From assembly GCF_000517625.1 (NCBI RefSeq), contig NZ_CP007059.1, forward strand, positions 1 to 64,000: a DNA stretch of 64,000 nucleotides. Direction: 5' to 3'. Below the pieces are notes generated by a model. That model was not told the DNA's origin and ran no database searches. It saw only the letters and a program-made list of their open reading frames with translations. This DNA comes from Halostagnicola larsenii XH-48. GTDB taxonomy: Archaea; Halobacteriota; Halobacteria; Halobacteriales; Natrialbaceae. The first letter of the stretch is position 1. Each line of letters begins with the position of its first letter. Below are positions 3,607 to 8,490 of the stretch, piece after piece. A program made the translations under genes and the position numbers.

Positions 3607-3894
3607 TCAGTAAAAGATGATTCCGACCACTTCCATCGCGAAGAACATCGTTATCCAGAGAACGGTCGTGATGATAACGAGATACCCGACCCCCATCGCG
3701 GCCAGTTTCGGTTTTCGTGGCGAGCCGAGAAACCACGCGGCGATCATCACGTAGACCGGCATCAGGATGATGCCGAAGATGAGCCAGGTCCCCGTATCCG
3801 GAAACCCCGCGGTCGGTCCGCGACCGCCGAATCCGTGGGTCAACACGACCTCGAGTATCGAAAGGACCGCCGGATCGAGCGCGCTGAAACTCAT
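3607..3894 (-). CDS. Small membrane subunit of an NrfD/FeS complex, 95 aa
   Basis: Two to three hydrophobic helices (about residues 35-57 and 67-92) joined by a short basic loop. It overlaps the NrfD gene by 4 nt (ATGA), so it is the last gene of a tightly coupled operon 6954->3607. No cysteine or haem-ligand motif is obvious. By analogy with alternative complex III and related NrfD assemblies it could be an accessory membrane subunit, but that is inference from position and topology only. Confidence 0.8.
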   Translation of the reverse strand: MSFSALDPAVLSILEVVLTHGFGGRGPTAGFPDTGTWLIFGIILMPVYVMIAAWFLGSPRKPKLAAMGVGYLVIITTVLWITMFFAMEVVGIIFY

Positions 3895-5252
3895 GCTTTC
3901 ACCTCTGGCCTCTCGCCGCCGTCACCGGACTCGTCGTCTCGAGACGTGTCCTGTAAGTGTTCGACGGCGTGGAGTTCGACCACCGGAACCACCTTCGCGA
4001 CCAGGAGAAAGAACATCGTGACCATGCTGACCGTTCCGAGAACCGATGCCAACTCGATCAGGCTCGGCCAGTAGCTGCCGGGAACGGCTGCATAGATGTC
4101 GAACGTCGGGTGCAATAGCCCGTCGACAACGAACAGAATCTTTTCCATCAAGGTCGCGGCGAGCACCGCGACCCCAGCGACGACCGAGCGTTTCTTCGTA
4201 AACACCGCTGGTCGAATTGCTTGTGCGAACGTATATATGAGCACCAGCGTCACGAGCGTCATCGCGACGATGTACATCGGCGTCGAAAGCTTCGCACTGA
4301 CCGCGGCGGCGAGATCGAGCGGCGGCGCGAACGTGCCAACGATGTTTTGCTGTAACTGGAGCCACAGGAATAGCAGACAGAAAAAGCCGAGCCAGAGCGT
4401 GAGACCGCGAAAGACATCGTCGGCGATGATGTGATCCCAATCGTAGACGTAGCGGAACCCGTACGATAACAGAATCACGCCACTGATCGCAGACGTCAGT
4501 GCGATCGTCAGGAACTGTGGTCCCTGAACCGCACCGAACCAGCCGGGCATTGACGGAATCAGCGCGAACAGCCACGGGATGACGCCCCCGTGGAGCAACA
4601 ACGGCGCGAGGATGATGATCGCGAGCGCAAGCCACCAGACCATCCGCTGGACCATCTGATCTTCTTTCTCCGTGTAGCCGATCGTCATGAGTTTGTAAAT
4701 CGGTTCGAAGTGGTTCGGGAGATCATCACGCAGGCGGGTGATGTCGTATCGAAGCGTCAGTGCCAGATACGTCGTCGTCAGGATGAGATAGAGCGTGATG
4801 ACGGTCACGTCCCAGACCAGCGGCGAACTGTTGATCGTGATGTGAAAGTGGCCGATGATGCTCCGAACCATCCGATCTGGACGCCCGAGGTGGACGACGA
4901 TGTAGAAGCCGGCCGCAGAGAGCCCGGCAATCGTCAGGAGTTCAGCGAGGCGTGCCACCGGCATGTATCGTTCCATACCGAGCAATCTGACGGCAGCCGA
5001 GAGGATGATTCCGCCGTGAGCGATCCCGACCCACCAGATGAACGCGCCGATGTACAGCCCCCAGGTGACGCCGCCGCCGCTGCCCCAGTCCGAAAGCCCG
5101 GTCACGACAAGCCCCTCGGAAAGCTGGTACATCCACCCGAGGAGAAACAGGGCGAACGCGAGCCCCGCAATAGCGAAGACGACGAAATATCCCTTCGACG
5201 TGTGCTGAATCGGACGCAGAATGTCCTCTCTGGTGGGTCGCTCGGTACTCAT
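3891..5252 (-). CDS. nrfD: NrfD/PsrC family quinone-interacting membrane subunit
   Basis: 453 residues with about ten hydrophobic helices and the PsrC/NrfD family layout. A short cytosolic N-terminus carries T-R-E-D-I-L-R-P, and the first helices hold W-G-L-Y-I-G-A-F-I-W-W-V-G motifs followed by the G-G-I-I-L-S-A-A-V-R-L-L helix. Family role: membrane-integral quinol/quinone-reactive subunit passing electrons to or from a peripheral FeS protein, as in polysulfide reductase and alternative complex III. It overlaps the FeS subunit gene upstream and the small membrane gene downstream by 4 nt each. The acidic C-terminal tail is typical of haloarchaea. The substrate of the whole complex is unknown because no catalytic subunit is present. 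Confidence 0.92.
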   Translation of the reverse strand: MSTERPTREDILRPIQHTSKGYFVVFAIAGLAFALFLLGWMYQLSEGLVVTGLSDWGSGGGVTWGLYIGAFIWWVGIAHGGIILSAAVRLLGMERYMPVARLAELLTIAGLSAAGFYIVVHLGRPDRMVRSIIGHFHITINSSPLVWDVTVITLYLILTTTYLALTLRYDITRLRDDLPNHFEPIYKLMTIGYTEKEDQMVQRMVWWLALAIIILAPLLLHGGVIPWLFALIPSMPGWFGAVQGPQFLTIALTSAISGVILLSYGFRYVYDWDHIIADDVFRGLTLWLGFFCLLFLWLQLQQNIVGTFAPPLDLAAAVSAKLSTPMYIVAMTLVTLVLIYTFAQAIRPAVFTKKRSVVAGVAVLAATLMEKILFVVDGLLHPTFDIYAAVPGSYWPSLIELASVLGTVSMVTMFFLLVAKVVPVVELHAVEHLQDTSRDDESGDGGERPEVKA

Positions 5253-6634
5253 AGTAGATTCCCACCAACGGTTCCCTCGTCGGTGACCTCCTTTCGAACG
5301 TCAGCCAACCGGATCGTTTCGTCGTCGTTGCTTACATAACTCAACTCGTCGTACTGAATCGGACCCTCGATCTGTTCTGCGTTCGGACCCGGCTGGTTGC
5401 CGATGTAGACGACGTTCGGATTCGTTCCGATCTCCTCGAGCAACTTGAACGTCGAATCGGCCGCGCCACCGAATTCTGCAATCATTGCTTGGGCCTCTTG
5501 TTCGCTCATCCCGTCCGGTTCCGTCTCGCCGTCGATAATGTCGATCGCTTCCTGCAGGTCGTCGTCATCGTCTGCGGCCATCGCTCGCGCCCGTCCCAGC
5601 GGTGGGTTATCCACGTACTGACGGGGTGCGCTCTCGGGGTCGTTCATATCGCCGAACTGGATCGCTTCCGGCGGACAGGCGTCCTCGCAGGCCGTGCTTC
5701 CGATCATGTCCTCGCCCTCGTGGCCGTCTTGACGAGTCGGGCAGAACGTACACTTACTCATAACCCCGCGCGGGGCTCGACTGTCGACCGGGCGATCACG
5801 ATCGTCGTATATGTGTTGGTCCTCGATCGCGCCTTCTGGAACCTCCGGTTCCATCCACTGGAAGTAGTTGACGCCATACGGACAGGCGACCTGACAGTAC
5901 CGACACCCGATACAAACCTCGTAATCGGTAAGCACGAGGCCATCGCTTTGGCGCGTGTGGCGAGCCGTCGTCGGGCAGACCTTCTCACACGGCGCATCGG
6001 TACAATGCTGGCACGGCCGAATGAGACGTTGCCGTCCGGTTTCGAGCTGCTCGGTGGGATCTTCCCAATCGAGAACGTACATCCAGTTCACGCCAGAGTC
6101 GAGCTGATTCTCGTCGGCACAGGCCTCCACGCAGGAGAGACAGCCGTCACAGGTCTCGAGATCCAGCACCATCCCCCACTGGACCCCCTCGTCATCAGCG
6201 CCGCCTTGAGCGGGGCCTGCGTCGACGCTCGGCTCGGAATCGTCGACCGTCGCCGCTGCCCCCAGGCCGAGAAAGGCAGCACCCGCACCCATCTTCTTGA
6301 TCACCTCGCGGCGATCGACTTCGCCGTCGCCATCGAACGCCTCGAGCACTCGGCCCAGACCACCGTCGTCGTCCGATTCCATCTCCTCGAGTGCCGCTTC
6401 GGTCGGCCGGTCGTCCTGGCCGAACTCTGCCATCATATCCTCGTGGTACTTCTCGTGGAAGTCGGCCTCCGAGAGTTCGCCCTTGGTAACCCGCATCGCG
6501 TCCTGTGCCATTTCCATACCAAGTTCAGTATCGTACTCGGTATCGTCGAGCATCGCTTCGAGATCGTTTTCCCACTCTTCCCCGAGGGGATGGAACGAAT
6601 CGGCCGTCTCGTTCGACTCGTCGTCCGCGTTCAT
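5249..6634 (-). CDS. 4Fe-4S ferredoxin-type subunit with long N-terminal extension and internal Tat-like motif
   Basis: 461 residues. Residues 1-105 form an acidic helical extension. A twin-arginine motif (D-R-R-E-V-I-K-K-M, RR at 108-109) is followed by a hydrophobic G-A-G-A-A-F-L-G-L-G stretch. The ferredoxin core from about residue 150 has four Cys sets: CDGCLSC, CQHCTDAPC, CIGCRYC and a CTFC...ACEDAC set, the normal four-cluster pattern of DmsB/PsrB/ActB proteins. It relays electrons between the NrfD membrane subunit and a partner protein. It overlaps nrfD downstream and the small membrane gene upstream by 4 nt. The Tat motif implies a face outside the membrane, and its position more than 100 residues in is odd. 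Family is certain; partner is unknown. Confidence 0.93.
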   Translation of the reverse strand: MNADDESNETADSFHPLGEEWENDLEAMLDDTEYDTELGMEMAQDAMRVTKGELSEADFHEKYHEDMMAEFGQDDRPTEAALEEMESDDDGGLGRVLEAFDGDGEVDRREVIKKMGAGAAFLGLGAAATVDDSEPSVDAGPAQGGADDEGVQWGMVLDLETCDGCLSCVEACADENQLDSGVNWMYVLDWEDPTEQLETGRQRLIRPCQHCTDAPCEKVCPTTARHTRQSDGLVLTDYEVCIGCRYCQVACPYGVNYFQWMEPEVPEGAIEDQHIYDDRDRPVDSRAPRGVMSKCTFCPTRQDGHEGEDMIGSTACEDACPPEAIQFGDMNDPESAPRQYVDNPPLGRARAMAADDDDDLQEAIDIIDGETEPDGMSEQEAQAMIAEFGGAADSTFKLLEEIGTNPNVVYIGNQPGPNAEQIEGPIQYDELSYVSNDDETIRLADVRKEVTDEGTVGGNLL

Positions 6635-6954
6635 TCAGTCGTACCCCTGGTATCAGTCCGTCCAACGACGTGTGGACGCTTTTTGAGCCCCCAGCCGATG
6701 ACGCCGAGGAGCAACAACGCAGCGACGAACAGCGTGATCCAGGTCGTCGCCGTCGGGTCTCCGTAGGCGGCCGCGTCTGGAATCATCCGCGTCATCTGGA
6801 TCATGACGAGGACGAGAAAGAGGACGCCGAACATCGAGGAGACCGCAACCCAGATGCCGTCGTAGAACGCCTCAGTCGTCTCGACCGCGTCACGAGAACT
6901 GCACTCTGTCGGTTCTTCCGGTGGATCCGGTTCGGTTCGATACGTGTGACCCAT
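6631..6954 (-). CDS. Small membrane protein at the head of the NrfD/FeS operon, 107 aa
   Basis: Two hydrophobic helices with a short charged linker; the N-terminus is soluble and contains a single Cys. The start at 6954 (MGHTYRTEP) is preferred because the longer upstream frame is basic and non-haloarchaeal in composition. The stop overlaps the FeS gene start by 4 nt, so it heads the four-gene operon. It has no recognised domain. Its two-helix layout resembles the small membrane subunits that accompany NrfD in alternative complex III-like assemblies (inference). Confidence 0.75.
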   Translation of the reverse strand: MGHTYRTEPDPPEEPTECSSRDAVETTEAFYDGIWVAVSSMFGVLFLVLVMIQMTRMIPDAAAYGDPTATTWITLFVAALLLLGVIGWGLKKRPHVVGRTDTRGTTE

Positions 6955-7077
6955 GGGAACACAACCTACGCCAGCAGTTACAAAAGAGCCACGGGGAGGT
7001 ACGGGATTTAATTCGAGATTAGACCGCGTTTGGACGACGATACTGGCGTTTCGTCGATGGACGTTCAATAATTTGAA

Positions 7078-7491
7078 TTATTCTCCATCAGCCATCTTTT
7101 CTCTGGGTTGCCAGAGCGCACACCAGTCGACCGATCGAATCGGTCCCGCCACCTCGGTGCACGCGCCGATCGCGTCGCCGTTCTCATCGTCGATATAGAA
7201 GGTACAGTTCCCGCACTGAGCGCCGTCTCTTGCACCGCACTCGTAGGCGGCGTTGCTCTTCGATTCTAGCTCCCCCTCGTCGGCTCGCTCGATCCCGTCG
7301 ATACTCGGTGCAGTGGCCTCCACCTCCGGGACCTCGCCGTCTAATATGTCGAGACACCAATCGGCGGGGCGCTCGTCCTGCGGTGACCCGTTTGCGCCCA
7401 AATTAAGACAGCCCGCGAGCCCGATAACCGAACCGGTGCCGGCGAGTTGGAGCAATCGACGACGCGTTTTTCGACGCTCGGAGTCGTTCAT
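7078..7491 (-). CDS. High-potential iron-sulfur protein (HiPIP), Tat-exported lipoprotein
   Basis: 137 residues. The N-terminus has a Tat motif (R-R-R-L-L-Q-L-A-G) and a lipobox-like L-A-G-C, so it is probably exported folded and lipid-anchored outside the membrane. The C-terminal part carries the HiPIP ligand pattern: C-G-N-C-T-F-Y, then C-T-E-V-A-G, then V-D-W-C-A-L-W. HiPIPs hold one 4Fe-4S cluster cycling 3+/2+ at high potential and act as soluble electron carriers. It lies 123 nt upstream of the NrfD/FeS operon on the same strand, so it is a good candidate electron donor or acceptor for that complex. Assignment rests on motif recognition. Confidence 0.85.
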   Translation of the reverse strand: MNDSERRKTRRRLLQLAGTGSVIGLAGCLNLGANGSPQDERPADWCLDILDGEVPEVEATAPSIDGIERADEGELESKSNAAYECGARDGAQCGNCTFYIDDENGDAIGACTEVAGPIRSVDWCALWQPREKMADGE

Positions 7492-8104: not shown

Positions 8105-8490
8105 CATCCTCCCGCCCTGAAGGGCGAGGATTCCCGCGGTGGGATATTGTGGTTTACGACGTTATGTGTTCTTGAGGTGTGAACGCACCAGTTTCCGTGT
8201 CAAACAAGACCGTCGATGGCTGTGCCAACCAGCCGTTACTCCTATCTCCCCCGTCACAGGAGAGACTCGGAGATACTTTCTGTCGAATGTTCTCAGCACC
8301 GTTCACATCCGCGTTCGCCACCATACCACACTCATCACAGACGTATAACCCACGTTCAACACGGTTCGCCTTGCGCTCCCGGCCACAGCACGAACACGAC
8401 TTCGACGTATCCCGCTCGGACACCTGCTCGACCGTGATGCCGTTCATCTCGGCTTTGTAAGTGAGCAGATCTGTGAAGCGGTCGACCGAT
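8103..8490 (-). mobile_element. Remnant of an IS200/IS605-family (IS1341-type) element, right end only
   Basis: The right terminus is the palindromic hairpin at 8107-8130 (CCTCCCGCCCT / AGGGCGAGG), read on the minus strand as ...GGGAGGATGTCAA, the form usual for haloarchaeal TnpB-only elements. Only the 3' third of tnpB remains. The element stops near 8490, directly after the stop of the Lrp gene. No tnpA or left end is visible. The remnant separates uspA and lrp. Confidence 0.8.
8154..8490 (-). pseudogene. TnpB C-terminal fragment (RNA-guided nuclease relic)
   Basis: About 112 codons survive. They cover the zinc-ribbon (C-S-C-C-G ... C-D-E-C-G) and the final RuvC motif (N-A-D-V-N-G-A-E-N-I), ending in the W-L-A-Q-P and P-Q-E tail seen in haloarchaeal TnpB. 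The reading frame continues upstream of the ATG at 8447 as D-R-F-T-D-L-L-T-Y-K-A-E, which is genuine TnpB sequence, so the ATG is not the start. The first two RuvC acidic residues and the N-terminal domain are missing, so it cannot be an active nuclease. Confidence 0.88.

Follow-up and report, generated by a model that had tools for sequence, protein, structure and literature searches.

A haem- and molybdenum-free FeS-NrfD module as a candidate complex III of Halostagnicola larsenii XH-48 and other haloarchaea

How do electrons leave the quinone pool in haloarchaea without cytochrome bc1? The question is raised by a redox operon of Halostagnicola larsenii XH-48 (minus strand, 3607-7491), which lies in a stretch of 64,000 nucleotides (contig NZ_CP007059.1, positions 1 to 64,000; below, the window) and comprises, in this order, genes for a high-potential iron-sulphur protein (HiPIP), a small protein with two transmembrane (TM) segments (TMa), an iron-sulphur subunit (FeS), an NrfD-type membrane subunit (NrfD) and a second small two-TM protein (TMb). 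Transfer from the quinone pool to halocyanin without cytochrome bc1 in haloarchaea is called unresolved in a passage of PMC3403918 (2012); according to a passage of PMC8305020 (2021), roughly a third of haloarchaea, Natrialbales above all, have no complex III equivalent, and there, too, electron flow is called unresolved. We consider that FeS, NrfD and TMb (below, the module) probably form a haem-free, molybdenum-free menaquinol:one-electron-carrier oxidoreductase, that is, a functional complex III. This reading is built on what was observed: the order of the genes, their homology and conserved residues, the CuA motifs of the oxidases, the loss of cytochrome b, and the co-occurrence of that loss with the module. 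A proposal of the module as complex III was not found in the open-licence literature.

Cytochrome b (PF00033) and the module (scored as an orthologous NrfD at E <=1e-100, a chosen threshold) were surveyed in 392 genomes of the order. Cytochrome b was found in 290/392 genomes and in 0/4 Halostagnicola genomes, that of XH-48 included; the module was found in 94/102 genomes without cytochrome b vs 36/290 genomes with it. Within Natrialbaceae, the family of XH-48, 75 genomes had the module only, 10 had both, 11 had cytochrome b only and none had neither (Fisher p 4e-9); outside this family the corresponding numbers were 19, 26, 243 and 8 (Fisher p 6e-12), both p-values being uncorrected for relatedness. 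The combination of module and missing cytochrome b recurs in families f4, f9, f10, f13 and f16 (f13 and f16 from incomplete genomes). With the set restricted to genomes of >=90% completeness and <=5% contamination, counted by hand, the module was present in 86/89 without and in 32/256 with cytochrome b. The eight genomes with neither are five incomplete ones, one that is 91% complete and two small ones of f12; in the last two, which are perhaps anaerobes, NrfD matches were paralogous or none. Of 176 NrfD matches, 46 missed the threshold; ten of these had intermediate values (1e-40 to 1e-84), and each of the ten came from a genome that has cytochrome b.

Both CoxB proteins of XH-48 (2/2) carry the full CuA motif C-x3-C-x3-H-x2-M, as do 30/30 best-scoring COX2 loci of the family, a choice by score that favours CuA. 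CuA oxidases accept electrons from one-electron donors; because CoxB keeps CuA, the oxidases of XH-48 would need a quinol-to-carrier step. In the third COX1-type match of this genome (L223:6109-7011), which by eye is NorB-like, an internal TGA breaks the gene.

Is a catalytic subunit missing from the operon, as the first-pass annotation of the window had claimed? No molybdopterin gene was found on the operon contig (130,926 bases, one of five contigs of the genome), no molybdopterin match within FeS by Pfam, and no CxxCH haem motif among 47 genes called in the window, so that the claim holds for the adjacent genes. Haem cytochromes of the ActA/ActE type were not recognised among the operon neighbours, no genome-wide search for them having been made. 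The genome encodes three PF00384 proteins, all on other contigs (two of FdhA-like architecture, one assimilatory-type by appearance) and none with a twin-arginine translocation (Tat) motif; an unlinked molybdenum partner was rejected on this ground, and the earlier view, which a catalytic subunit elsewhere in the genome would have overturned, stands.

The same arrangement was found beyond the genus. A search for molybdopterin genes beside homologous operons had been recommended; in the 54 loci that were collected for an FeS gene next to an NrfD gene, from eleven families (f1, f4, f5, f7, f9, f10, f12-f16), no gene separates the two, and a molybdopterin gene lies neither between them nor inside the operon (0/54). 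TMb is a constant companion of the pair (54/54), and the gene of an Mrp Fe-S carrier, present in 49/54 operons, is the usual downstream neighbour (e.g. L087:7714-8844). This Mrp/NBP35-type neighbour suggests a dedicated cluster-insertion factor for FeS.

The kinship of the pair to the electron-transfer part of alternative complex III (ACIII, ActABCDEF), which had been noticed before, is borne out by structure comparison, ActB and ActC being the closest solved relatives. FeS matches best the ActB chain 6f0k_B of ACIII (E 5.5e-29; the alignment covers only the C-terminal part of ActB), and the only solved structures matched by the NrfD profile at E <=0.1 are ActC chains. The NrfD model (mean predicted local distance difference test, pLDDT, 80.9; predicted template modelling score 0.84) gave Z 37.6-39.2 over 422-426 residues with four ActC chains, 27.0 with ActF and 19.0 with PsrC; the single-chain model of FeS was poor (mean pLDDT 57.6) and was not used. 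Quinone residues of ActC are His139, Ser164, Asp169 and Asp253, as listed in a passage of PMC8076601. By profile alignment, the first three correspond to H121, S143 and D148 of the window NrfD and are kept in 27/28, 28/28 and 28/28 homologues, respectively; in the inner half-channel, 9/13 ActC residues are identical in the window NrfD. Quinol oxidation by NrfD at the outer face is plausible. FeS has exactly 16 Cys in four sets of four, 14 of them invariant in 32/32 homologues and the others kept in 31/32 and 29/32. Its internal twin-Arg, R108-R109, which follows the long N-terminal PF16947 domain, is invariant in 32/32 homologues; FeS is predicted to be Tat-exported, in which case its clusters would sit outside the membrane, like the Tat lipoprotein HiPIP. 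For TMb, solved relatives were rejected, only weak and implausible matches to designed proteins and a receptor being obtained (best E 0.0053).

Which carrier would such a module reduce? The HiPIP leader holds the Tat motif RRRLLQLAG and the lipobox LAGC of a Tat lipoprotein, followed by the ligand pattern C93-x2-C96-x14-C111-x12-C124, with the four Cys invariant in 5/5 sequences. Its profile matches known HiPIPs among solved structures, best 3h31 (E 3e-4), which we take to be the HiPIP of Rhodothermus marinus. It is the sole PF01355 protein of the genome and, as a family member, is predicted to have a high-potential [4Fe-4S]3+/2+ couple. From 14 order-wide relatives at >=170 bits, G237 was left out; an FeS gene of the same family adjoins the HiPIP in 12 of the remaining 13 loci (same strand in 3, divergent in 9; 11 adjacencies read from the loci, that of G164 from coordinates), the exception being G332 (L155), with no adjacent FeS. 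FeS and HiPIP adjoin COX2 and fused COX1-COX3 genes in the Halovivax-type loci L157, L158 and L159, and COX2 lies about 5 kb from FeS in G164 (coordinates). More distant HiPIPs (L162-L165, L167-L170) have no FeS nearby; that of L166 adjoins the Mrp end of a complete FeS-NrfD operon. The order-wide HiPIP total of 336/392 genomes was not used, many matches being weak (31-35 bits and lower) and probably a reflection of common Tat/lipobox leaders. In several haloarchaeal families, two HiPIP domains stand in one frame of about 260-345 aa (e.g. G386:C1:1191661-1192293).

Elsewhere, the slot directly upstream of FeS may hold a halocyanin gene, which was counted when on the same strand and scoring at least 80 bits. 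By this count halocyanin is in the slot in 10/54 operons (f1, f4, f13, f15), three of these proteins being confirmed by Pfam Copper-bind (46-61 bits). Not counted were L184 and L275 (24 bits, look broken) and L201 (divergent, 43 bits); halocyanin remnants, apparently frameshifted or truncated, lie in the slot at L275:7836-8246 and L184:891-1118. Independently annotated plasmid records of Natrononativus (= L180) and Halomontanus have this gene order too, with halocyanin, 4Fe-4S protein, nrfD, small protein and Mrp/P-loop NTPase in succession. Halocyanin is the commoner carrier neighbour and HiPIP a special case; the first-pass annotation is thus partly supported, its core idea of a complex without catalytic subunit between quinone pool and HiPIP being upheld and extending to other families. 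The genome of XH-48 encodes two Copper-bind proteins, located away from the window operon.

In the mechanism that we propose, NrfD would oxidise menaquinol in its outer-face pocket (H121/S143/D148). From there the four [4Fe-4S] clusters of exported FeS would conduct the electrons to a lipoprotein anchored on the outer side of the membrane, namely HiPIP in the case of the window operon and probably halocyanin in other operons, and this carrier would reduce the CuA site of a haem-copper oxidase. The conserved cytoplasmic half-channel may serve for proton uptake; since its outer counterpart is not conserved, whether NrfD pumps is uncertain. What we infer here from the observations above is the electron path and its direction, the specificity for a partner, pumping and the assembly of the complex.

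The five genes of the window operon lie where they had been placed, as coordinates and Pfam scores confirm (Table 1). Overlaps of 4 bases join TMa to FeS, FeS to NrfD and NrfD to TMb, and 123 bases separate the HiPIP stop from TMa; judged from this layout, HiPIP is likely co-transcribed with the other four. Chance grouping is excluded, because the five-gene order recurs in 3/4 searched genomes of the genus (window, L160, L161); the fourth (G036) carries only a HiPIP-less copy. TMa was seen solely in the HiPIP-type operon of three genomes (window, L037/L161, L160). On its main contig, XH-48 has a second FeS-NrfD-TMb set (L087), which lacks HiPIP and TMa and has an Mrp-type gene downstream; identity to the window copy is 67.9% for NrfD, 66.7% for FeS and 47.2% for TMb. 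Beside the window operon, a frame of 97 aa (8154-8447, minus strand), which by eye resembles an IS605-type TnpB at its zinc-ribbon end, is probably a transposon remnant.

Table 1 Genes of the window operon, with positions in the window and Pfam matches
Feature	Description	Position	Strand	Pfam
HiPIP	Lipoprotein	7078..7491	minus	HIPIP, 25.1 bits (cut-off 22)
TMa	107-aa two-TM protein	6631..6954	minus	no family above cut-off
FeS	FeS subunit, ActB2/PsrB-like, 461 aa	5249..6634	minus	Ferredoxin_N (PF16947), 118.5 bits; several Fer4 models
NrfD	NrfD subunit, ActC-like	3891..5252	minus	NrfD (PF03916), 68.4 bits (cut-off 25.8)
TMb	95-aa two-TM protein	3607..3894	minus	no family above cut-off

Could the pair serve another purpose? 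Publicly, NrfD is annotated as 'NrfD/PsrC family molybdoenzyme membrane anchor subunit', and with FeS it would then be the quinone-side anchor of an unlinked molybdoenzyme of the PsrABC/DmsABC kind; sister operons with a molybdenum subunit exist (L211, L279, L212, L281), and in L193 and L202 a molybdenum operon that has an FeS gene of its own lies apart, at a distance of 2-5 kb. We hold this role to be quite improbable in view of the three PF00384 proteins of XH-48 described above, the uninterrupted pair in all 54 operons and the separation of molybdenum-free from molybdenum-bearing operons in trees. It is improbable that complex III is not needed at all, the oxidases using menaquinol directly and the module serving, for example, minor stress or anaerobic electron transfer. 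Quinol oxidases are argued for in natronoarchaea without complex III and alternative homologues (a passage of Sorokin et al. 2018, PMC6176080), and XH-48 itself has a cytochrome bd; the CuA motifs of CoxB and COX2, with the bias of the latter sample, argue against this explanation, which would also give no account of why nearly every genome without cytochrome b has the module.

Reversal of the module, with externally reduced HiPIP or halocyanin feeding the quinone pool, has a parallel in QrcCD, a related FeS-NrfD pair that reduces menaquinone (a passage of PMC13059093). HiPIP also gave a weak match to the Iro iron oxidase (12.8 bits, cut-off 100). The potentials of HiPIP and halocyanin lie far above that of menaquinone, and given these, reverse flow would need energy; no donor oxidase gene was recognised nearby, the module is associated with cox genes and cytochrome b loss, and we regard reversal as very improbable. 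That HiPIP is an accidental neighbour, the window copy sharing the halocyanins of the second copy, is a variant of the complex III reading and compatible with it, and appears rather unlikely: the 123 bases to the next gene and the halocyanin neighbours of other operons would fit, while the adjacency to FeS in nearly all loci of the subfamily, in two orientations, and the location elsewhere of both Copper-bind proteins of the genome do not.

Several observations weigh against the complex III reading that we favour. Module and cytochrome b occur together in 36 genomes (46 if the ten intermediate NrfD matches are counted), and the co-occurrence was not corrected with a species tree. HiPIP is in the upstream slot in 3/54 operons, all in the single genus Halostagnicola, and by the threshold used that slot is without a carrier gene in 41/54 operons. 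Many Natrialbaceae have FeS copies without NrfD and NrfD copies without FeS, and the molybdenum operons near L193 and L202 count here as well. Asp253 of the ActC quinone site is not conserved in NrfD homologues, and 1/6 residues of the outer half-channel (only Glu394) is identical in the window NrfD. The one cytochrome bd of XH-48 offers a bypass for quinol oxidation, and therefore a knock-out may survive.

The unpaired copies were also listed. In many Natrialbaceae (L043-L063, e.g. L048:10001-11666), an FeS paralogue has no NrfD beside it, its sole companion downstream being a two-TM protein of 65 aa; such orphans often lie near genes that, by eye, encode phosphoenolpyruvate carboxylase and a homocitrate/citramalate-type synthase. 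Orphan NrfD copies (L171-L178, L185) are nearly as close to the module NrfD as the operon copies are, and have no FeS gene in the 19.5 kb examined for each; perhaps they pair with orphan FeS.

From what did the module arise? In midpoint-rooted trees (43 NrfD rows, 47 FeS rows), it groups with the molybdenum-bearing haloarchaeal operons L211, L279, L212 and L281, two of which encode a TMb-like protein (joint clade 99/98 for NrfD, 100/98 for FeS); the molybdenum-free operons form a clade separate from these, and bacterial ActC and ActB rows fall outside the joint haloarchaeal clade. On long branches, the molybdenum-free L280 falls among the molybdenum group by NrfD and with the molybdenum-free group by FeS. 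Direct descent from ACIII was rejected on this placement, midpoint root and long branches leaving the deep part of the trees loose. Because its sisters are haloarchaeal molybdenum operons, the module is read as the descendant of a haloarchaeal molybdoenzyme from which the catalytic subunit would have disappeared; it would have converged on ACIII without belonging to it. The window FeS nests with copies of its own genus (99/98 with two HiPIP-less-type copies), so that the window operon is a late, within-genus duplicate, which would have gained HiPIP and TMa, lost Mrp and become dedicated to HiPIP. A plasmid operon of Natronorubrum bangense (L287; NrfD 41% identical) is of the molybdenum type (molybdopterin, FeS, nrfD, small protein, TorD); it adjoins arsD/arsA, which suggests an arsenic-linked ancestor. 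The HiPIP-less second copy, the halocyanin slot, the anticorrelation with cytochrome b, the CuA oxidases and the descent from a molybdoenzyme had all escaped the first-pass annotation.

Set beside known systems, the module resembles ACIII most in its parts: FeS is like the B2 part of ActB, NrfD is like ActC over nearly its full length and shares its His139, Ser164 and Asp169, HiPIP has been described as an ACIII acceptor, oxygen reductase genes are frequent neighbours of act clusters, and auracyanin, a blue-copper ACIII acceptor named in a reference title, parallels halocyanin. Unlike ACIII, module operons have no ActA pentahaem or ActE monohaem cytochrome and no ActF, contain one NrfD each, and have the 95-aa TMb in place of ActD; the inactive molybdopterin-like domain B1 fused in ActB is lacking from FeS, whose 16 Cys (4x4) differ from the one [3Fe-4S] cluster listed for ActB; and in trees the module groups with haloarchaeal molybdoenzymes, not with ActC. 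With complex iron-sulphur molybdoenzymes (PsrABC, haloarchaeal DmsABC) it has the FeS-NrfD electron-transfer pair in common; the haloarchaeal sister operons of this type encode a molybdenum subunit, a TorD chaperone and in some a TMb-like protein, whereas in the module catalytic subunit and chaperone are missing, and carrier genes and Mrp take their place. DsrOP (of DsrMKJOP) and QrcCD are likewise an exported FeS protein with an NrfD protein and gave the best NCBIfam models, all below cut-off, but haem partners of the DsrMKJ or Qrc kind were not seen in the module operons; the names DsrO (147.7 bits, cut-off 200) and DsrP (73.9 bits, cut-off 350) were rejected, as were QrcC, NrfC and DmsB, all below their cut-offs. 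The proposed reaction, menaquinol to one-electron carrier, is that of cytochrome bc1/b6f (PetABD), whereas the module has no haem b, Rieske protein or Q-cycle machinery and its proteins are unrelated.

Evenly balanced, in our judgement, is the larger claim that the module is a third, independently evolved kind of respiratory complex III: a molybdenum enzyme stripped of its catalytic subunit, which would act as a three-subunit menaquinol:halocyanin/HiPIP oxidoreductase free of haem and molybdenum, would have let at least six families lose cytochrome bc, and would be the sole supplier of CuA oxidases in most Natrialbaceae, the window version being specialised for HiPIP. For the quinone-to-halocyanin step of haloarchaea without bc1, the module is a concrete and testable candidate: its genes are defined, residues are conserved, and a clear phenotype is predicted. 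If the reading is true, these archaea would have a minimal complex III without haem or Q-cycle cytochrome, convergent with bacterial ACIII, and would offer a simple system in which to ask whether an NrfD subunit pumps protons.

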